Shown one piece after another: positions 9,653 to 20,992 of a stretch of 64,000 bases of DNA. The notes below the pieces were generated by a model, which saw only the letters and a list, made by a program, of their open reading frames with translations, did no database searches and had not been told where the DNA came from. The DNA lies in assembly GCF_004801305.1 (NCBI RefSeq), contig NZ_SSOD01000012.1, positions 62,001 to 126,000 on the forward strand. Direction: 5' to 3'. Source of the DNA: Pseudothauera rhizosphaerae (GTDB lineage: Bacteria > Pseudomonadota > Gammaproteobacteria > Burkholderiales > Rhodocyclaceae). Within the stretch, counting starts at the first letter, position 1; each line of letters starts with the position of its first letter. A program made the translations under genes and the position numbers.

Positions 9653-11305
9653 ATGTGGACCACCCATGAAGTGTCCAACCAAGTGCCGCCCCTCGCGGAC
9701 TACAACCTCTACGCCCGGGACACTGCGCTGCAGGAGGCGCTCGCCCGCGAAGGGGCCGGCGCCCACGCCGCCGTCCTGCACGCCTGGGGCGAGGAACTCG
9801 GACGCGCCGAGACGCTGGCCCTGGGCGACGCCGCCAACCGCCACCCGCCCCAGCTCGCCACCCACGACGCCCAGGGCCGGCGGGTGGACCGGGTGGACGT
9901 CCACCCCGCCTGGCACCGCCTCACGGCCCTGCTCCACGCCCACGGCGTGCACGCCGCCGCCTGGCTGGATGCGCAGCCCGGCGCCCACGTCGCCCGCGCC
10001 GCGGCCTTCTACCTGCACGGCCAGGTGGAAGCCGGCAGCCTGTGCCCGGTCACCATGACCTTCGCCGCCCTGCCCCTGCTGCGCCGCGAGCCGGCATTGT
10101 GGGCGCTGCTGGCCGGCAAGTTCGCCTCGCGCGACTACGATCCGCGCGACCTGCCGCTGGCCGACAAGGGCAGCGCCACGCTGGGCATGGGCCTCACCGA
10201 GAAGCAGGGCGGCTCCGACCTGCGCGGCAACACCACCACCGCCCGCGCGCTGGCCGGCGGCGGGCGCGGCGCCGAGTACGCCCTGGTCGGCCACAAGTGG
10301 TTCTACTCCGCCCCGGCCTGTGACGCCCACCTGGTGCTGGCGCGGGACGACGAGGCCCTGTCCTGCTTCTACGTGCCGCGCTGGGGGCCGGACGGCGAAC
10401 GCAACGGGGTACGCATCCAGCGCCTCAAGGACAAGCTCGGCAACCGCTCCAACGCCTCCGGCGAAGTGGAATTCCACGACGCCCTGGGCATCCTGGTGGG
10501 CGAACCCGGGCGCGGCATCCCCACCCTGATCGAGATGGCGGCCCAGACCCGGCTCGACTGCGTGCTGGGCAGCGCCGCGCTGATGCGCCGCGCGCTGGTG
10601 GAAGCGCTGCACCACGCCCGCCACCGCAGCGCCTTCGGCCGTCCGCTCATCGAGCAGGACCTGATGCGCAACGTGCTGGCCGACCTGGCACTGGAAAGCG
10701 AAGCCGCCCTCGCGCTCGCCCTGCATCTGGCCGCCGCCGTCGATGCCGAGCACGGCGGCGGCGAACAGGCCGCATTGGCCCGCGCCCGGCGCCGCATCCT
10801 GACCCCGGCGGCCAAGTTCTGGGTGTGCAAGCGCGCCGCCGCCTTCACCGCGGAATGCATGGAAACGTGGGGCGGCAACGGCTACGTGGAGGACGGCCCC
10901 ATGCCGCGCCTGCTGCGGGAGGCGCCGGTGAACTCGATCTGGGAAGGCTCGGGCAACGTGATGTGCCTGGACGTGCTGCGCGCCATCGCCCGCGATCCGG
11001 ACGCCGCCGCGCTGCTGTTCCACGACCTGGCCCAGGGCTGCGCCGCCGAGCCGCGCCTGCTGCGCCCCCTGCACGCCCTCACCACCCAACTCAACAGCCC
11101 CGGCGACAGCGAGTGGCAGGCCCGCTCCATCGCCACGCAACTGGTGCTGCTGGTGCAGGCCACCCTGCTGCGCCGGCACGCCCCGCCCGCCGTGGCCGAC
11201 ACCTTCATCGCCAGCCGCTTCGAACACCCCGCCGGCCAGGTGGCGGGGCTGCTGCCGGATGCGGAGACTGCCCGGACGCTGATCGAGCGCGCCTGGGTGG
11301 ATTGA
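9653..11305 (+). CDS. aidB: AidB-type acyl-CoA dehydrogenase family protein
   Basis: 550 residues, matching the length of E. coli AidB. The N terminus (THEVSNQVPPLADYNLY, then EALAREGAGAH and HPAWHRL) is characteristic of AidB rather than of catabolic acyl-CoA dehydrogenases. Flavoenzyme motifs are present: LGMGLTEKQGGSDLRGNTT, HKWFYSAP, and a C-terminal ECMETWGGNGYVEDGPMPRL. AidB is an FAD protein of the adaptive response to DNA alkylation that binds DNA; its chemical reaction remains unclear. An isovaleryl-CoA dehydrogenase role cannot be excluded from sequence alone. GGGGAGG precedes the ATG. It is the last gene before the acetone operon control region. Confidence 0.87.
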   Translation: MWTTHEVSNQVPPLADYNLYARDTALQEALAREGAGAHAAVLHAWGEELGRAETLALGDAANRHPPQLATHDAQGRRVDRVDVHPAWHRLTALLHAHGVHAAAWLDAQPGAHVARAAAFYLHGQVEAGSLCPVTMTFAALPLLRREPALWALLAGKFASRDYDPRDLPLADKGSATLGMGLTEKQGGSDLRGNTTTARALAGGGRGAEYALVGHKWFYSAPACDAHLVLARDDEALSCFYVPRWGPDGERNGVRIQRLKDKLGNRSNASGEVEFHDALGILVGEPGRGIPTLIEMAAQTRLDCVLGSAALMRRALVEALHHARHRSAFGRPLIEQDLMRNVLADLALESEAALALALHLAAAVDAEHGGGEQAALARARRRILTPAAKFWVCKRAAAFTAECMETWGGNGYVEDGPMPRLLREAPVNSIWEGSGNVMCLDVLRAIARDPDAAALLFHDLAQGCAAEPRLLRPLHALTTQLNSPGDSEWQARSIATQLVLLVQATLLRRHAPPAVADTFIASRFEHPAGQVAGLLPDAETARTLIERAWVD

Positions 11306-11315
11306 CGCAAACGGC

Positions 11316-11335
11316 CGTTCGCTTTCCGGACGTTC
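11316..11335 (+). promoter_or_regulatory. candidate AcxR upstream activating sequence of the acx operon
   Basis: The 20-mer here differs by one base from the left arm of the inverted repeat upstream of acxR (18686-18705); shared core TTTCCGGACGTTC. Its centre is about 129 bp upstream of the GG of the sigma-54 element, a normal distance for an enhancer-binding protein. Only one clear copy is present; a weak second half-site may lie near 11403-11413. Confidence 0.6.
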
Positions 11336-11423
11336 ATCGTCTTTCTGATCGCTGCCGGGCGCGAGTCCGTTCTGCTGCGCCGCGACAGGCATCGCCTTCA
11401 TCATTCCGGCACGCGGGACTCCT

Positions 11424-11445
11424 GATGGTGCGGCATCGCACCATC
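11424..11445. promoter_or_regulatory. perfect 22-bp palindrome next to the acx sigma-54 promoter
   Basis: GATGGTGCG and CGCACCATC are perfect 9-bp arms around GCAT. The palindrome ends 7 bp before the -24/-12 element, so a bound protein would lie at about -34 to -55. It differs in sequence from the proposed AcxR motif, which suggests a second regulator. It is not found upstream of acxR. Confidence 0.5.
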
Positions 11446-11452
11446 TCCGTTC

Positions 11453-11468
11453 AGGCACGTGGATTGCG
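11453..11468 (+). promoter_or_regulatory. sigma-54 (-24/-12) promoter of the acetone carboxylase operon
   Basis: AGGCACG-TGGA-TTGCG matches the consensus TGGCACG-N4-TTGCW except at the first and last bases, with exact GG/GC spacing (11454-11455 and 11466-11467). Transcription would start near 11479, about 50 bases before the acxA ATG. This fits an operon controlled by the sigma-54 activator encoded downstream. Confidence 0.8.
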
Positions 11469-11529
11469 ATTGCCCAGGCGGCGCGGCGCCCCCCGGCACC
11501 GCCATCCACAACAAGGAACGGAGACACTC

Positions 11530-13680
11530 ATGGAAGTCCATACCGCATCCCGCGTGGAGGTGATGGGCATCGATGCCGGCGGCACGATGACCGACACCTT
11601 CTTCGTGCGCGAAGACGGCCGCTTCGTGGTCGGCAAGGCGCAGAGCAACCCGGCGGACGAATCGCTCGCCATATTCAATTCCTCCCAGGACGCGCTGGCG
11701 CACTGGGGCCGCGACGTGGACCAGGTCTATCCGGAACTGGTCACCTGCGTGTATTCCGGCACCGCCATGCTCAACCGGGTGGTGCAGAGGAAGGGCCTGG
11801 ACGTAGGCCTGATCGTGAACCGCGGCTTCGAGCAGGTGCACTCCATGGGCCGGGCGATCCAGAGCTACCTGGGCTATGCGCTGGAAGACCGCATCCATCT
11901 CAACACCCACCGCTACGACGAGCCGCTGGTGCCCCTGTCCCGCACCCGCGGCGTGACCGAACGCACCGACGTGCAGGGCGAGATCGTGATCCCGCTGCGG
12001 GAGGACGAGGTGCGCCAGGCCACCCGTGAGCTGGTGGAGGCCGGCGCCAGGGCCATCGTCATCTGCCTCTTGCAGTCCCACAAGAACGAGACCAGCGAGA
12101 AGCGCGCGCGCGACGTGTGCCGCGAGGAACTGGCCACGCTGGGCGTGGACATCCCCGTGTTCGCCTCGGTGGACTACTACCCCTCGCGCAAGGAAAGCCA
12201 CCGCATCAACACCACGGTGCTCGAAGCCTATGCCGCCGAGCCCTCGCGGCAGACCCTGCAGAAGGTCAGCGACCGCTTCAGGAAGCAAGGCGCCAAGTTC
12301 GACCTGCGCGTGATGGCGACCCACGGCGGCACCATCTCGTGGAAGGCCAAGGAACTCGCGCGCACCATCGTCTCCGGCCCCATCGGCGGGGTCATCGGCT
12401 CCCGCCTGCTGGGCGAGGCCCTGGGCTACGAGAACATCGCCTGCTCCGACATCGGCGGCACCTCCTTCGACATGGCGCTGATCACCAAGGGCAGCTTCTC
12501 CATCGCCTCCGACCCGGACATGGCGCGCCTGGTGCTGTCCCTGCCACTGGTGGCGATGGATTCCGTGGGCGCCGGCGCGGGCAGCTTCGTGCGCATCGAC
12601 CCCTACAGCGGCGGCATCAAGCTGGGGCCGGATTCCGCGGGCTACCGGGTCGGCACCTGCTGGCCGGAAAGCGGGCTGGACACGGTGTCGGTATCCGACT
12701 GCCACGTGGTGCTGGGCTACCTCAACCCGGACAACTTCCTCGGCGGCGCCATCAAGCTGGACGTGCAGCGCGCCCGCGACCACATCCAGGCGCAGGTCGC
12801 CGACCCGCTGGGCCTCTCGGTGGAAGACGCGGCGGCCGGCGTCATCGAGCTGCTCGACCTGCAACTGCGCGACTACCTGCGCGCCAACATCAGCGCCAAG
12901 GGCTACAACGCGGCCGATTTCGTGTGCTTTTCCTACGGCGGCGCCGGCCCCGTGCACACCTACGGCTACACCGAGGGCGCGGGCTTCAGGGACGTCATCG
13001 TGCCGGCCTGGGCGGCGGGCTTTTCCGCCTTCGGCTGCGCCTGCGCGGATTTCGAGTACCGCTACGACAAGAGCGTGGACATCGCCGTGGCGCAGCACGG
13101 CAGCAGTGCCGAGAAGACCACCGCCTGCGGGACCGTCCAGGCCGCCTGGCAGGAACTGGCCGCCAAGGTGGTGGAGGAATTCGTCATCAACGGCTTCAAG
13201 CCGGAGGACGTGATCCTGCGCCCGGGCTACCGCATGCAGTACATGGGGCAGTTGAACGACCTGGAGATCGATTCGCCGATCACCGGCGCCGCCACCGCGG
13301 CCGACTGGGACCGCATGGTGGACGCCTTCGAGGACACCTACTCGCGGGTCTACGCGAGTTCCGCGCGTTCGCCCGAGCTGGGCTTCTCGGTCACCGGCGC
13401 GATCATGCGCGGCCTGGTGACGGTGCAGAAACCCGCCCTGCCCGAAGACCCGGAAGACGGCCCCGTGCCGCCCGATGCGGCCCGCCTGGGCACGCGCCCC
13501 TTCTACCGCAACGGCAGGTGGGTGGACGCGGTGCTGTGGAAGATGGAAGCGCTCAGGCCCGGCAACGAGATCACCGGCCCGGCCATCATCGAATCCGATG
13601 CCACCACCTTCGTCGTGCCCGACGGCTTCGCCACGCGGCTCGACAAGCACCGCCTTTTCCACCTCAAAGAAGTGAAGTGA
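11530..13680 (+). CDS. acxA: acetone carboxylase, HyuA-like ATP-binding (beta) subunit
   Basis: 716 residues. The N terminus has the phosphate-binding motif of hydantoinase A/oxoprolinase proteins (MGIDAGGTMTDTFFV), a second nucleotide motif CSDIGGTSFDMAL and the C-terminal-half motif CFSYGGAGPVHTYGY. Acetone carboxylase is an alpha2-beta2-gamma2 enzyme that uses ATP to activate bicarbonate and acetone and forms acetoacetate plus AMP. The HyuA-like subunit binds the nucleotide. Gene order beta, alpha, gamma and the sizes 716/774/168 match acxABC of Xanthobacter and Aromatoleum; five-subunit acetophenone carboxylase is excluded by this organisation. GGAACGGAGA precedes the ATG. acxB starts 10 bases after the stop. 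Confidence 0.93.
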   Translation: MEVHTASRVEVMGIDAGGTMTDTFFVREDGRFVVGKAQSNPADESLAIFNSSQDALAHWGRDVDQVYPELVTCVYSGTAMLNRVVQRKGLDVGLIVNRGFEQVHSMGRAIQSYLGYALEDRIHLNTHRYDEPLVPLSRTRGVTERTDVQGEIVIPLREDEVRQATRELVEAGARAIVICLLQSHKNETSEKRARDVCREELATLGVDIPVFASVDYYPSRKESHRINTTVLEAYAAEPSRQTLQKVSDRFRKQGAKFDLRVMATHGGTISWKAKELARTIVSGPIGGVIGSRLLGEALGYENIACSDIGGTSFDMALITKGSFSIASDPDMARLVLSLPLVAMDSVGAGAGSFVRIDPYSGGIKLGPDSAGYRVGTCWPESGLDTVSVSDCHVVLGYLNPDNFLGGAIKLDVQRARDHIQAQVADPLGLSVEDAAAGVIELLDLQLRDYLRANISAKGYNAADFVCFSYGGAGPVHTYGYTEGAGFRDVIVPAWAAGFSAFGCACADFEYRYDKSVDIAVAQHGSSAEKTTACGTVQAAWQELAAKVVEEFVINGFKPEDVILRPGYRMQYMGQLNDLEIDSPITGAATAADWDRMVDAFEDTYSRVYASSARSPELGFSVTGAIMRGLVTVQKPALPEDPEDGPVPPDAARLGTRPFYRNGRWVDAVLWKMEALRPGNEITGPAIIESDATTFVVPDGFATRLDKHRLFHLKEVK

Positions 13681-13690
13681 GGAGACCGAC

Positions 13691-16015
13691 ATGAACATGA
13701 TGAGCAACAAGGAAACCGGCTTCGCCGACCTGCTCGGCAACGGCCAGACCCTCAAGCAGTACCGCGACGCGATCCTCGAACGCACCCACGCCACCGGCCA
13801 CTACAACGGCCTCACGCGGCTCGACCTGCGCGAATCGGACCCGATCCGCTACGAGAAGCTGTTCTCCAAGCTGCGCGGCGGCCTCGTGCATGCGCGGGAA
13901 ACCGCCAAGAAGATCGCCGCCAGCCCCATCGTGGAGCAGGAGGGCGAACTGTGCTTCACCCTCTACAACGCCGCGGGCGACTGTGTGCTGACCTCCACCG
14001 GCATCATCATCCACGTGGGCACCATGGGGGCGGCGATCAAGTACATGATCGAGAACAACTGGGAGACCAACCCCGGCATCGATCCCGGCGACATGTTCAC
14101 CAACAACGATTGCTCCATCGGCAACGTGCACCCCTGCGACATCGCCACCATCGTGCCGATCTTCGCCCACGGCAAGCTGATCGGCTGGGTGGGCGGGGTG
14201 ACCCACGTGATCGACACCGGCGCGGTGACGCCGGGCTCCATGTCCACGGGCCAGGTGCAGCGTTTCGGCGACGGCTACATGATCACCTGCCGCAAGACGG
14301 GGGTGAACGACCAGCCCCTGCGCGACTGGCTGCACGAGAGCCAGCGCTCGGTGCGCACGCCCAAGTACTGGATCCTCGACGAGAAGACGCGCATCGCCGG
14401 CTGCCACATGATCCGCAGCCTGGTGGAGGAAGTGATTGCCGAGGAGGGCCTGGAGGCCTACGAGAAGTTCGCCTTCGAAGTCATCGAGGAAGGCCGCCGG
14501 GGGCTGGCCACGCGGCTGAAGGCCATGACCCTGCCGGGCAAGTACCGCAAGGTGGCCTTCGTGGACGTGCCCTACGCCCACCCGGACGTGCAGACCTCCT
14601 CGGCCTTCGCCAAGCTCGATTCCATCATGCACTCCCCGGTGGAGATGGAGATCCGCCGGGACGGCACCTGGCGCCTGGACTTCGAAGGCGCGAGCCGCTG
14701 GGGCTGGCACAGCTACAACGCCCACCAGGTCGCCTTCACCAGCGGCATCTGGGTGATGATGACCCAGACCCTGGTGCCCACCCAGCGCATCAACGACGGC
14801 GCCTACTACGGCACCGAGTTCCGCCTGCCCAAGGGCGCGTGGATGAACCCGGACGACCGCCGCACCGGCCACGCCTACGCCTGGCACTTCCTGGTCTCGG
14901 GCTGGAGCGCGCTGTGGCGCGGCCTCTCCCAGGCCTACTTCAGCCGCGGCTATCTGGAAGAGGTCAACGCCGGCAACGCCAACACCTCCAACTGGCTGCA
15001 GGGCGGCGGCATCAACCAGGACGGGGACATCCACGCGGTGAACTCCTTCGAGGCCAGCGCCTGCGGCACCGGCGCGGGCGCCATCAAGGACGGCCTCAAC
15101 CACGCCGCGGCGATCTGGAACCCGGAAGGCGACATGGGCGACATCGAGATCTGGGAGATGGCCGAACCGCTCATCTACCTCGGGCGCAACGCCAAGGCCA
15201 ATTCCGGCGGCTACGGCAAGTACCGCGGCGGCTGCGGTTTCGAGACCCTGCGCATGGTGTGGAAGGCCCAGGACTGGACCATGTTCTTCATGGGCAACGG
15301 CTTCATGAACAGCGACTGGGGCCTGATGGGCGGGTATCCGTCCGCCACCGGCTACCGCTTCGAGGCCCACAAGACCGGCCTCAAGGAGCGCATCGCCATC
15401 GGCGACAGCCTGCCGCTGGGCCCCGACGCCAACCCGGACGCGCCCGACTACGAGCACCACATCGACGCCGGCGCGCGGATCAAGCGCGACCACCAGTGCA
15501 TGACCACCGAGGATTGCTACGAGAACTACGACCTCTACCTCAACTACCTGCGCGGCGGCCCCGGCTTCGGCGACCCGCTCGACCGGGAGCCCGAGGCCAT
15601 CGCCCGCGACCTCAACAACGCCTGGCTGCTGCCCGAGTACGCCGAGAAGGTCTATGGCGCGATGATCAGCCAGGACGACAAGGGGGTGTGGAGCGTGGAC
15701 GCCGCGGCCACCGCGAAGCGCCGCACCGAGGTGCGCAGGGAACGCCTCGCCCGCGCAGTGCCGACCCGCGAGTGGATGCACGAGGAACGCGAACGCATCC
15801 TCACCAAGCACGCCAGCGCGCCAGTGAAGCACATGTTCGCCACCAGCTTCGGCCTGTCGCAGAAATTCCTCGCCGAGTTCAAGGCCTTCTGGAACCTGCC
15901 CCAGGACTGGTCGCTGCCCGAGGACGAACTCGACGTGCCGTCCTACGGCTCCCGGTACCGCATGGACCTCTCGAAGATGCCCGACGTGAAAACCGTCGTG
16001 CTCGTCGAGGAGTGA
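13691..16015 (+). CDS. acxB: acetone carboxylase, HyuB-like metal-binding (alpha) subunit
   Basis: 774 residues, the usual length of the alpha subunit. The hydantoinase B domain contains the conserved cluster TNNDCSIGNVHPCD and the following GWVGGVTHVIDTG, which supply acidic and histidine ligands for the catalytic manganese in known enzymes. Further on are GGINQDGD and NSGGYGKYRGGCGFE. In known structures carboxylation takes place in this subunit, away from the ATP site. GGAGACCG lies just before the start ATG; a second ATG five codons in is possible. The codon use and tight 10-base spacing to acxA support co-translation. Confidence 0.93.
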   Translation: MNMMSNKETGFADLLGNGQTLKQYRDAILERTHATGHYNGLTRLDLRESDPIRYEKLFSKLRGGLVHARETAKKIAASPIVEQEGELCFTLYNAAGDCVLTSTGIIIHVGTMGAAIKYMIENNWETNPGIDPGDMFTNNDCSIGNVHPCDIATIVPIFAHGKLIGWVGGVTHVIDTGAVTPGSMSTGQVQRFGDGYMITCRKTGVNDQPLRDWLHESQRSVRTPKYWILDEKTRIAGCHMIRSLVEEVIAEEGLEAYEKFAFEVIEEGRRGLATRLKAMTLPGKYRKVAFVDVPYAHPDVQTSSAFAKLDSIMHSPVEMEIRRDGTWRLDFEGASRWGWHSYNAHQVAFTSGIWVMMTQTLVPTQRINDGAYYGTEFRLPKGAWMNPDDRRTGHAYAWHFLVSGWSALWRGLSQAYFSRGYLEEVNAGNANTSNWLQGGGINQDGDIHAVNSFEASACGTGAGAIKDGLNHAAAIWNPEGDMGDIEIWEMAEPLIYLGRNAKANSGGYGKYRGGCGFETLRMVWKAQDWTMFFMGNGFMNSDWGLMGGYPSATGYRFEAHKTGLKERIAIGDSLPLGPDANPDAPDYEHHIDAGARIKRDHQCMTTEDCYENYDLYLNYLRGGPGFGDPLDREPEAIARDLNNAWLLPEYAEKVYGAMISQDDKGVWSVDAAATAKRRTEVRRERLARAVPTREWMHEERERILTKHASAPVKHMFATSFGLSQKFLAEFKAFWNLPQDWSLPEDELDVPSYGSRYRMDLSKMPDVKTVVLVEE

Positions 16016-16040
16016 GCCCCGCCATCCACCCGTGACACAC

Positions 16041-16062
16041 GCCGCCGGCCACGGCCGGCGGC
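16041..16062 (+). other. GC-rich hairpin between acxB and acxC
   Basis: GCCGCCGGCC and GGCCGGCGGC are perfect 10-base arms separated by AC. There is no T-run, so termination is unlikely. It may be an RNA processing or stabilising element that adjusts the amount of the small subunit (inference). Confidence 0.55.
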
Positions 16063-16086
16063 CCACACGAAATCAGGAGACACATC

Positions 16087-16593
16087 ATGACGACCTACAC
16101 CAAGGAACAGGTCAGCAAGCTCGTCGACGGCAAGCTCGACTGGGACACCACGCTGCGCATGCTCGCCATGCCCAAGGACAAGGAACGCTTCGCGCTCTAC
16201 CTCGAGGCGCTGCAGAAGAAGGTGAGCTGGCCGGACAGGATCGTGCTGCCGCTGGGGCCCCACCTCCACATCGCCCAGTCGGCGCAGACGAAGCAGTGGG
16301 TGACCAAGTGCGAGTGCGGCCACGAGTTCGGCGACTACCGCGAAAACTGGAAGCTCAACGCCGCCATCTACGTGCGCGACACCGAGGAGGCCATGGCGGA
16401 GGTCTATCCACGCCTGATGGCGCCGGACACCACCTGGCAGGTGTATCGCGAGTACTACTGCCCCGCCTGCGGCACCCTGCACGACGTGGAGGCGCCGACC
16501 CCCTGGTATCCCGTGATCCACGACTTCGAGCCCGACATCGAAGCCTTCTACGAGGAATGGGTCGGCCTGCCGGTGCCGGAAAAGGCCGCCTGA
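16087..16593 (+). CDS. acxC: acetone carboxylase, gamma subunit (zinc-ribbon type)
   Basis: 168 residues, as expected for the roughly 20-kDa gamma subunit. Two cysteine pairs, KCECGHEF and YYCPACGTLHD, are placed to form a zinc ribbon, known in this subunit. The surrounding WKLNAAIYVRDTEEAM and EAPTPWYPVIHDFEPD are typical of the family. The subunit is required for activity and is thought to bridge alpha and beta. AGGAGAC precedes the ATG. The gene follows a GC-rich hairpin and is followed by a terminator-like hairpin, so its transcript ends may differ from those of the rest of the operon. Confidence 0.92.
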   Translation: MTTYTKEQVSKLVDGKLDWDTTLRMLAMPKDKERFALYLEALQKKVSWPDRIVLPLGPHLHIAQSAQTKQWVTKCECGHEFGDYRENWKLNAAIYVRDTEEAMAEVYPRLMAPDTTWQVYREYYCPACGTLHDVEAPTPWYPVIHDFEPDIEAFYEEWVGLPVPEKAA

Positions 16594-16619
16594 GAGCCCG
16601 CCGTTTTCCTCCCCCGTTC

Positions 16620-16652
16620 CCGGCGGGCGCCGGCCGGTGCCCGCCGGTTTTT
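16620..16652 (+). terminator. terminator-like hairpin after acxC (probable partial terminator)
   Basis: CCGGCGGGC (16620-16628) and GCCCGCCGG (16639-16647) form a perfect 9-bp stem with a 10-nt loop, followed directly by TTTTT. It lies between acxC and the acyl-CoA synthetase gene. That gene has no obvious promoter of its own, so read-through with reduced expression is the likely outcome. Confidence 0.7.
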
Positions 16653-16697
16653 CCCCCGAGTGCTCGCCGCACGGGCGAGCCCCATGGAGACGATCCG

Positions 16698-18683
16698 ATG
16701 ACGGAAACCCGTCTTGCGCACGGCACGCCCTTCGCGGACACCGCGCTCTACCGCTTCCTGCACGACTACGGCCATGCCGACCTGGGCGCCCTGCACGCCT
16801 GCGCCCGGGAAGAACCCGTGCGCTTCTGGGCCGAGGTGGAGGACGCCGTCGGCCTGCGCTGGACGCGGCGCTACCGCACGGTGTGCGACCTCTCCGCCGG
16901 CCCCATGTGGCCGCGCTGGTTCGTGGACGGCGAACTCGACCTGTTCGACAACCTGGTCGGCCGCATCGCCCACGAGGACCCCGCCCGGCCCGCGCTGGTC
17001 TGGGAAGGGGACGACGGCGCGACCCGCCGCTTCAGCTACGCCGAACTCGACCGGGAGGCACGGCGGCTGGCGGCGGCCTTCGAGCGGCTGGGCGTCGCGC
17101 CCGGCGCGCGCATCGCCATGTACCTGCCCATGGTGCCCGAGACCGCGGTGGTGTTCCTCGCCGCCGCGCGCCTGGGCGCCATCGTGCTGCCGCTCTTCTC
17201 CGGCTACGGCGCCGACGCGGTGGCGAACCGGCTCGCCGACAGCGGCGCGGCCGTGATGGTGTGCGCCGACGGCTACCTGCGGCGCGGCCGGCGCGTGGAC
17301 ATGCTGGCCGAAGCCCGTGCCGCTGCGACCGCCGCGGGCCTGGCACACCTGCTGGTGGTGCCACGGCTCGGCACCTTTGCGGCGCCGACGCCGGGCGGCG
17401 GCTGGCGCGAATGGGACTACGGCGTCCTGCTCGCGGCCTGCGAACCGGCCGGCGGCGCGGCCCCCCATCCGGCCGACGCGCCGCTGCTGATCCTCTACAC
17501 CTCGGGCACCACCGGGCGGCCCAAGGGCGTGGTGCATACCCATGCGGGCTTCCCCCTCAAGGCCGCCCAGGACATGCTCATGGCCTTCGACCTCGGCCCC
17601 GGCGACCGCCTGATGTGGATCACCGACATGGGCTGGATGATGGGCCCGTGGCTGGTGTTCGGCGGCCTGCTGCGGGGCGCGACGCTGGTGTTCTTCGAAG
17701 GCACGCCCGACCATCCCGCACCCGACCGCATCTGGCAGCTCGCGGCGCGCCACCGGCTCACCCATCTCGGCCTCTCGCCCACCCTGGTGCGCCTGCTGAT
17801 GGCCGCGGGCGAGGCCGGCCTGCCGCGGCCGGGCCTGCCCGAAAGCCTGCGCGTCTTCGGCTCCACCGGCGAACCGTGGAACGACGCCCCCTGGCACTGG
17901 CTGTTCGACACCGTGGGCCAGGGGCGCTGCCCCATCATCAACTATTCGGGCGGCACCGAGATCGGCGGCGGCATCCTCGCCTGCTTCGCGGGCCTGCCGC
18001 AGAAACCCTGCGGCTTCCACGGGCCGATCCCCGGGATGCAAGCCGACGTGGTGGATACGGCGGGCCGCTCCCTCCCCGGAGGCGGCGGCACGGACGAGGT
18101 GGGCGAACTCGTGCTGCGCGCGCCCTGGCCGGGCATGGCCCACGGCTTCTGGCAGGACGACGCGCGCTACCTGGAAACCTACTGGGCGCGCTTCCCGGGC
18201 CTGTGGATGCATGGCGACTGGGCGCGGGTGGACGGCGACGGCCACTGGTTCATCCAGGGGCGCAGCGACGACACCCTCAAGATCGCGGGCAAGCGCGTCG
18301 GGCCGGCCGAATACGAATCCGCGCTGGTGGCCCATCCGCTGGTGGCGGAGGCGGTGGCCATCGGCGTACCCGACCCGGTGAAGGGCGAGGTGGCGACCTG
18401 CTTCGTGACCATTGCCCCATCCGCCCGCGGCGCGGCGCAGGACTGGACCGCGCTGGAGGCGGAACTCGTCGCCCACGTGGCCGCCCAGTTGGGCAAGCCG
18501 CTCGCCCCGGCGCGGGTGCATCGCGTGGGGGCCCTGCCCCGCACCCGCAACGGCAAGATCCTGCGCCGCGTGGTGCGCGCGGTATGGCTCGGCAAGGAGA
18601 CGGGCGACCTCGGTTCGCTCGAGAACCCCGAGGCGCTCGACGCCCTGCGGCGCTGCCGCGAGGCCTTCGCGGCAATGGCCTGA
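16698..18683 (+). CDS. AMP-forming acyl-CoA synthetase, probable acetoacetate-CoA ligase
   Basis: 661 residues of the ANL superfamily, closest in layout to acetyl-/propionyl-/acetoacetyl-CoA synthetases. Visible motifs: A3 LILYTSGTTGRPKGVVHTH, A5 YSGGTEIGGG, the GDWARVDGDGHW and GRSDDTLKIAGKRVGPAEYE region, and A10 RTRNGKILRR with the adenylation lysine. The N-terminal segment FWAEVEDAVGLRW matches the acetyl-CoA synthetase cap. Its place directly after acxABC implies activation of acetoacetate to acetoacetyl-CoA, which a thiolase can cleave. Substrate is inferred from context only; acetate or propionate is possible. GGAGA lies 7 bases before the ATG at 16698. Confidence 0.82.
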   Translation: MTETRLAHGTPFADTALYRFLHDYGHADLGALHACAREEPVRFWAEVEDAVGLRWTRRYRTVCDLSAGPMWPRWFVDGELDLFDNLVGRIAHEDPARPALVWEGDDGATRRFSYAELDREARRLAAAFERLGVAPGARIAMYLPMVPETAVVFLAAARLGAIVLPLFSGYGADAVANRLADSGAAVMVCADGYLRRGRRVDMLAEARAAATAAGLAHLLVVPRLGTFAAPTPGGGWREWDYGVLLAACEPAGGAAPHPADAPLLILYTSGTTGRPKGVVHTHAGFPLKAAQDMLMAFDLGPGDRLMWITDMGWMMGPWLVFGGLLRGATLVFFEGTPDHPAPDRIWQLAARHRLTHLGLSPTLVRLLMAAGEAGLPRPGLPESLRVFGSTGEPWNDAPWHWLFDTVGQGRCPIINYSGGTEIGGGILACFAGLPQKPCGFHGPIPGMQADVVDTAGRSLPGGGGTDEVGELVLRAPWPGMAHGFWQDDARYLETYWARFPGLWMHGDWARVDGDGHWFIQGRSDDTLKIAGKRVGPAEYESALVAHPLVAEAVAIGVPDPVKGEVATCFVTIAPSARGAAQDWTALEAELVAHVAAQLGKPLAPARVHRVGALPRTRNGKILRRVVRAVWLGKETGDLGSLENPEALDALRRCREAFAAMA

Positions 18684-18684
18684 A

Positions 18685-18736
18685 GCGTTCGATTTCCGGA
18701 CGTTCGGCGTCGATCCAACGTCCGGAAATCGAACGC
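18685..18736. promoter_or_regulatory. perfect 20-bp inverted repeat, candidate AcxR binding site upstream of acxR
   Basis: Arms 18685-18704 and 18717-18736 are perfect reverse complements with a 12-bp spacer. Each carries the motif found once upstream of acxA. It begins right after the synthetase stop codon and could also act as a hairpin, but there is no T-run. Arm centres lie about 135 and 103 bp upstream of the sigma-54 element at 18829, the usual enhancer distance. The rest of the 314-bp gap (18684-18997) holds that promoter and a GC-rich inverted repeat at 18806-18830, and no gene. Confidence 0.65.
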
Positions 18737-18828
18737 GCCACACCATCCATAAATGAGCCTTCGCACGCCCGTTCCGCAAACGGACGCACGGACGCCGTTC
18801 CCGCGCAGCCCGCTCGCGGCCGGCGGGC

Positions 18829-18844
18829 TGGCATTTCCTTTGCT
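18829..18844 (+). promoter_or_regulatory. sigma-54 (-24/-12) promoter of acxR
   Basis: TGGCATT-TCCT-TTGCT matches TGGCACG-N4-TTGCW except at two bases, with exact spacing (GG 18830-18831, GC 18842-18843). Transcription would start near 18855, leaving a leader of about 143 bases. A TAAGCT sequence overlapping 18844-18849 could be a weak sigma-70 -10 box, but has no matching -35. An 8-bp inverted repeat (18806-18813 / 18823-18830) abuts the -24 region. Confidence 0.68.
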
Positions 18845-18997
18845 AAGCTACAAACGCCCGTTCGGCTGGCAGCAAACGCACGCCGTCGCAGCGGGCAAAC
18901 GTCACGAAGCAGTGCGCCATGCGCGACGGCACCGCCGATCGCCCGTTGCCGCCAGAGCAGCCGGGCCGCCGCTTCCGCCAAGGAGGAGACCGAACGG

Positions 18998-20992
<1,995 letters not shown>

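Follow-up and report, generated by a model that had tools for sequence, protein, structure and literature searches.

Dyad sites upstream of acxA and acxR as very probable AcxR enhancers in the acetone carboxylase locus of Pseudothauera rhizosphaerae

A stretch of 64,000 nucleotides from Pseudothauera rhizosphaerae (contig NZ_SSOD01000012.1, positions 62,001 to 126,000), hereafter called the window, contains the acx operon for acetone carboxylase followed by acxR, the gene of a predicted sigma-54-dependent regulator. The control regions of acxA and acxR share a 17-bp dyad, present once in front of acxA and twice in front of acxR. Judged from the sequences compared here, these dyads are very probably the AcxR enhancer, and acxR probably activates itself. 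More specifically, they appear to be upstream activating sequences (UAS) that are bound by AcxR dimers and activate the sigma-54 promoters of both acx and acxR, a reading to which we assign a probability of roughly 0.88.

An earlier sequence-only reading of this DNA had pointed to a 20-mer, CGTTCGCTTTCCGGACGTTC, at 11316-11335 and to a copy with one different base at 18686-18705, the latter within an inverted repeat. These coordinates proved exact, and direct comparison of the repeat arms, 18685-18704 with 18717-18736, shows perfect reverse complementarity over 20 bp around a 12-base spacer. That a match of 19 out of 20 should not be due to chance was also borne out, as only three copies with up to three mismatches are found in the window, compared to 0.00 in shuffled sequences. 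While the shared sequence was correct, the 20-bp arm is not the likely unit. Each site is a 17-bp imperfect palindrome, CGTYCG-N5-CGRACG, with dyad symmetry of its own, so that the inverted repeat at 18685-18736 resolves into two head-to-head sites 33 bp apart from centre to centre.

The predicted AcxR site 1 upstream of acxA (CGTTCGCTTTCCGGACG, 11316-11332, plus strand) starts 214 bp 5' of the acxA start codon, at a position kept in relatives. Upstream of acxR, site A (CGTTCGATTTCCGGACG, 18686-18702, plus strand) is located 2 bp past the stop codon of the preceding gene, and its reverse complement, site B, is found at 18719-18735 on the minus strand. All three sites match the dyad consensus in 12 of 12 positions. 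A probable degenerate second site in front of acxA (CATCGTCTTTCTGATCG, 11335-11351, plus strand) has the same orientation and lies 19 bp further on; the block containing it is largely conserved among near relatives, and better matches at equal offset are present in three other loci (L045, L047, and L071). Downstream of the dyads, candidate sigma-54 -24/-12 elements were identified on the plus strand for the acx operon (AGGCACGTGGATTGCG, 11453-11468, 9/11, at a position conserved in near relatives) and for acxR (TGGCATTTCCTTTGCT, 18829-18844, 11/11), scored in each case against the 11 bases of TGGCAY-N5-TTGCW. The distances measured, 117 bp for acx and 123 and 92 bp for acxR, are close to the 100-135 bp proposed in the sequence-only reading.

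To be regulatory sites of one regulon, the motifs should not be widespread in their own genome (4.60 Mb in 45 contigs), and this was indeed the case: copies with up to two mismatches number three, all at acx. A genome-wide repeat, such as repetitive extragenic palindromic (REP) or uptake sequences, was ruled out on this count. For the 19-mer CGTTCGNTTTCCGGACGTT, ten matches with up to three mismatches were obtained in the whole genome, comprising the three acx copies without mismatch and seven others with three; the reversed control pattern yielded six. Perfect 12/12 dyads occur eight times, three of them at acx. The other five provided no clear further regulon member: four are located in frames that look coding (third-position GC, 0.84-0.90), including two that are ribosomal-protein genes as judged by eye, and the fifth, at C2:165446, is an ambiguous case. 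Scanning for dyads with one mismatch was uninformative, since the 136 matches per strand compare to 366 for the reversed control.

Conservation was examined in acx loci from several sources. Searching 297 genomes of the family with AcxC gave a match in 58, and the family set, defined by at least 75% AcxC identity, comprises 47 acx loci plus the window. From a second collection, the best 80 of 303 named acxA loci were taken. Nine named alphaproteobacterial loci from plasmid records and 17 loci from genomes of two other orders were added, and the locus of Cupriavidus metallidurans CH34 was also read. In a phylum-wide draw, acxA was present in six of 398 genomes. The main counts draw on 122 acxA upstream regions, forming 74 clusters at 80% identity, and on 125 regulator upstream regions (114 distinct ones for the core count). 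Sites were scored for a ten-base core, GTYCG-N5-CGRAC, or for the full dyad out of 12. The regulators were labelled according to their identity to AcxR of the window: A and A' (58-100%), B (53-55%), C (43-45%, divergent from acxA), and D (52-57%, paralogues elsewhere). In a regulator tree, C, B, and D have support as groups, and A' is mixed.

When the relatives were scanned with the window motif, many of them showed copies located about -211 to -229 from acxA, and inverted copies were seen before acxR. A core of at least 9/10 was detected between -265 and -150 from acxA in 58 of the 74 clusters, compared to 2.2% of 14,800 random windows from the same loci. Without clustering, a core was present between -265 and -165 in 85 of the 108 distinct regions (random windows, 1.9%; shuffles, 4.9%), and in the adjoining stretch from -165 to -65 it was found in just two of the 108. 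Among the 84 core sites in the 400 bp upstream of acxA, 33 start in the single bin from -220 to -211. Thus, the expectation that the motif is found upstream of other acx operons held, with the core kept at a fixed place before acxA in most clusters. Examples are Aromatoleum, Thauera, Zoogloea, Cupriavidus, Paraburkholderia, Thiorhodococcus, and Imhoffiella. Ancylobacter, a member of the family of Xanthobacter, also has the core. Among the 26 further loci (the nine from alphaproteobacterial plasmids and the 17 of the two other orders), a perfect core is present at acxA or acxR in 17; Denitromonas iodatirespirans (L125) has the core at acxR only. In several genomes, a second, usually weaker copy in the same orientation follows the acxA site at a distance of 18-20 bp.

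In front of the regulator genes, a perfect 10/10 core is located between -450 and -100 in 72 of 114 distinct regions, but in only 0.5% of shuffles. Paired sites within the range searched, 20-36 bp, were detected in 51 of 125 regions. Of 41 distinct pairs, 31 are spaced 29-33 bp and ten 22-24 bp, which corresponds to roughly three and two helical turns. Within the window, the acxA and acxR sites match in 16 of 17 positions, the upper end of the range of 12 to 16 seen in 20 genomes with both. Sigma-54 elements scoring 9-11 of 11 follow downstream in 55 of 74 acxA clusters (shuffles, 1.3%). For acxR genes with a product more than 60% identical to AcxR, 22 of 24 regions have an 11/11 element between -230 and -130, and 23 have one of 10-11 (shuffles, about 1%). 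Taken together, features indicative of a UAS are found in combination: a site of dyad symmetry kept in front of orthologous target genes, a -24/-12 promoter at enhancer distance downstream (11453-11468 and 18829-18844), and, encoded nearby, a protein with an AAA+ sigma-54 interaction domain and a Fis-type helix-turn-helix (HTH).

The recognition helices of the regulators differ in the two residues preceding STLY, which are AK, SR, or AR, and half-sites were counted from 84 distinct combinations of helix and perfect core site. For AK regulators, 90 of 98 half-sites have C as the outer base; for SR and AR regulators, T prevails (29 of 42 and 17 of 26, respectively), giving an outer T in 46 of 68 for the Arg regulators combined. 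T at position 4 (CGTTCG) is frequent with AK only, being seen in 47% of these sites compared to 5% with SR and none with AR. In clade C and in Paracoccus, the sites often read TGTCCG-N5-CGGACA and thus TGT-N11-ACA. In a further tree, built from 49 selected regulators (24 out of the 60 used for the regulator tree, plus 25 from other loci), AK occupies one side of a single branch, and SR requires two origins. The Lys/Arg difference in the operators appears to be a good but indirect sign that AcxR reads these sites, and AcxR is the likely binder of the dyads.

A number of observations weigh against this assignment. The link between helix and operator rests on one Lys/Arg change, because AK lies on one side of one branch and AR and SR barely differ in the outer base. 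Sixteen of the 74 acxA clusters lack a 9/10 core site between -265 and -150. Even with a wider interval, -280 to -150, in which 60 clusters have a site, it is missed in five of 28 clusters of clade A, five of ten of clade B, and four of five clusters without a regulator in the stretch examined. Clade B regulators carry the AK helix like those of A and D, and yet half of their clusters miss the site. The five clusters without an AcxR-type gene in the stretch examined are L124, L126, L186, L187, and L198. Among them, only L198, whose contig ends soon after acxA, has a site, while none is found in L187, on a short contig, or in the three clusters with at least 7 kb on both sides. Also close to the window, five of the six nearest acxA relatives (L041-L044 and L075) have an acxA site of at most 10/12, and only L063 shows 12/12. 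Four acxR genes of genus g40, which fall outside the 24 counted for sigma-54 elements, have neither a dyad nor a sigma-54 element in front. No sigma-54 element of at least 9/11 was detected in 19 of 74 acxA clusters, and nine of the 26 further loci are without a perfect core at either gene, a set for which no background was computed.

In clade B, shared blocks replace the canonical dyad upstream of acxA (L055, L058, L060, L067, L068, L074, L078, and L084-L086), among them CTGTCCGAYCG followed by ACGGTC near -260, and GTCCGAATTCCATCCGT. The same AK helix may use another site arrangement in this clade.

The dyads could be recognised by a different DNA-binding protein, for instance a repressor of the acx operon. 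Binding by AcxR is a prediction from sequence, the AcxR gene of genus g45 is about 9-16 kb away from the acxA start, and the lack of the site in half of the clade B clusters despite the AK helix fits a different binder. However, an AcxR-type gene is present in all 48 acx genomes tested, the sites precede acxA as well as acxR at enhancer distance from sigma-54 elements, and they differ between Lys and Arg helices, so that another binder, although AcxR-type genes were the only regulators looked for, is very unlikely. To regard the 19/20 match as a repeated element or as functionless chance similarity is hardly tenable: both places are just past stop codons, a common setting of repetitive elements, but there are no further copies with up to two mismatches in the genome and none in shuffles, and the position is fixed across genera.

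Alternatively, the inverted repeat at 18685-18736 could act mainly at the RNA level where the acx operon ends (3' end), either as a terminator or as a hairpin that stabilises the mRNA. It begins one base past the stop codon, and the 141 bases around it, including the 20-bp stem, fold with z = -5.6, as a stable hairpin should. Moreover, the first site follows the end of a same-strand open frame by 2-18 bp in 16 of the 41 distinct pairs, and the arms co-vary in two of five groups. On the other hand, no U tract follows the stem, the next bases after 18736 being GCCACACCATCC; the terminator scan, limited to loops of at most eight bases, cannot judge a repeat with a 12-base spacer. The identical 17-mer is single at acxA, where such a hairpin cannot form. 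For 17 of the 19 well-matched pairs, the complementary stretch of the arms ends no more than 2 bases from the 17-mer, and clade C and D pairs are mostly far from gene ends. A hairpin at the 3' end was therefore rejected as the main role and is considered very unlikely.

A further peculiarity of the acxR sites is the similarity of their two arms. At the seven positions left free by the consensus, the arms of a pair agree on average in 5.10 of 7, compared to 3.54 (standard deviation 0.22) for arms of different genomes. Over the 41 pairs, this value is reached in none of 5000 permutations, or none of 20,000 when stratified over groups. The concert is carried by two groups, near clade A (6.29 versus 4.14, 4/5000) and clade D (5.36 versus 3.65, 0/5000, or 5/5000 in a grouping without five of the 41 pairs). 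It was not significant for nine other clade A pairs (4.56 versus 4.04, 775/5000), four other AK pairs (3.50 versus 3.08, 2486/5000), and ten clade C pairs (5.10 versus 4.82, 1007/5000). All 41 pairs enter these group tests, among them the poorly matched L064 of clade C. A concert between acxA and acxR sites was not adopted, the mean agreement being 14.65 of 17 within a genome and 13.94 across genomes (20 genomes). Half-site geometry was discarded as the cause of the arm concert, since the T-type half is the outer one in some genomes and the inner one in others.

Template switching has been documented to homogenise short inverted repeats (PMC8604942; PMC8794818; PMC7202029, as far as available). 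Tentatively, and with less than even odds, the acxR operators could evolve in concert, the arms repairing each other by template switching (or the repeat acting as a hairpin as well), with Lys or Arg at the beginning of the recognition helix setting the outer pair of the operator. In near relatives and clade D, the arms would then stay reverse complements, central bases included, while drifting between species, and a mutational process would help to keep an enhancer pair matched before an autoregulated gene. A role as hairpin is the other reading of the concert. Among 22 selected loci, no spacer inversion, a possible mark of template switching, was detected at 75% identity. In L042 and L043, a third perfect dyad (CGTTCGGACGACGAACG) is present between the acxR sites, overlapping both inner edges, and CCGTCCG occurs in several other spacers, hinting at a third dimer.

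For the enhancer reading, the following course of events is proposed. AcxR dimers would bind the predicted sites through the Fis-type HTH, at the acxA promoter one strong and probably one degenerate site 19 bp on, and at the acxR promoter two strong head-to-head sites 33 bp apart. Upon a signal such as acetone, presumably sensed by the GAF domain, AcxR would assemble into an AAA+ oligomer, which may then bend the DNA into a loop and open the sigma-54 RNA polymerase at both promoters. In this way, AcxR would turn on acxABC and the downstream CoA ligase gene. It may also activate its own gene via sigma-54, which would constitute a positive feedback loop.

AcoR is, as predicted for AcxR, an activator with GAF, AAA+, and Fis-HTH domains that controls an operon for the catabolism of carbonyl compounds. 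The AcoR sites described for aco operons, CAGTTTGAGAC and GACAAAACGAGACAGATGTCTCATTTTGTC (30 bp), show no match to the dyad when inspected by eye (available text of PMC12648084). A UAS class of the form TGT-N10-12-ACA is known from NifA, FhlA, and fifteen clostridial groups (PMC6615313). The acx sites resemble it: dyads, often several per promoter, are mostly located 100-250 bp before a sigma-54 promoter, and the regulator gene is usually near. The sites of clade C and Paracoccus have the classical TGT-N11-ACA form of these regulators. In contrast, the clade of the window has an outer C, CGT-N11-ACG, and an extended core, CGTYCG-N5-CGRACG, and lacks the outer TGT and ACA.

Concerning acx itself, acxRABC of C. 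metallidurans CH34 has been described with an AcxR containing the sigma-54 contact motif and a sigma-54 promoter in the acxR-acxA gap (PMC2864759). It is the same operon as in the window, and at -217 from the acxA match it carries TGTCCGGATTCCGGACA. In CH34, however, acxR is divergent; among the family genomes compared, the divergent clade is 43-45% alike to AcxR of the window. In the available extracts of the papers on CH34 and pCMU01, acxR is named and no UAS is given (PMC2864759; PMC3621897). For BmoR, an alcohol-sensing enhancer protein, a near-palindromic element, placed 193 bp upstream, is reported in front of the sigma-54 promoter of the butane monooxygenase genes. Upon removal of this element activation was like wild type, and earlier truncations are cited as showing its necessity (PMC8899819, in the part available). 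Within the open-licence PubMed Central literature, partly available as extracts and with subscription papers outside the search, no published AcxR site was found (PMC2864759, PMC3621897, PMC8899819, PMC6615313, PMC4630880, PMC5874634, PMC12648084, PMC8784404), nor were six typical site sequences found in that literature.

With the dyads, the acetone carboxylase regulon of a large part of the Proteobacteria would gain a defined operator that can be put to the test, and self-activation of acxR through sigma-54 is predicted. Natural recognition helices with differing operators offer material for how Fis-type enhancer proteins read bases, and the sites may serve as parts for acetone or 2-propanol biosensors. 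The arm concert is a good case for asking if template switching keeps paired binding sites alike.

The genes of the locus are all located on the plus strand in the order AidB-like acyl-CoA dehydrogenase, acxA, acxB, acxC, AMP-forming CoA ligase, and acxR. The AidB-type gene (9653-11305) ends only 10 bp before the acxA enhancer site. The subunit of the hydantoinase A type is specified by acxA (11530-13680, 716 aa; Pfam Hydant_A_N, Hydantoinase_A, and Hydant_A_C), the name being based on similarity and context, and that of the hydantoinase B type by acxB (13691-16015, 774 aa; Hydantoinase_B). The acetone carboxylase gamma subunit is encoded by acxC (16087-16593, 168 aa; Acetone_carb_G, E 5e-56). 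The acs-like gene (16698-18683, 661 aa; AMP-binding, AMP-binding_C, and ACAS_N) predicts a ligase of the acetate/acetoacetate--CoA type, matching the NCBIfam models for acetate--CoA and acetoacetate--CoA ligases below the curated cut-offs. A G+C-rich hairpin at 18806-18830, detected in the terminator scan, extends into the start of the acxR sigma-54 element. Finally, acxR (18998-20992) was assigned by alignment and Pfam (GAF, Sigma54_activat, AAA_lid_14, and HTH_8).

In the AcxC family search, none of the five same-genus genomes listed gave an acxC match, and close relatives of acxA and AcxR of the window are present in genus g60. The acx locus (11530-20992) may have been acquired horizontally. 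A putative sister regulon is represented by L109-L120, twelve clade D regulators (52-57% identical to AcxR) that share their contigs, at distances of up to about 21 kb, with acxC-like genes of 31-37% identity. In eight of these twelve, dyad pairs 22-24 bp apart are found.

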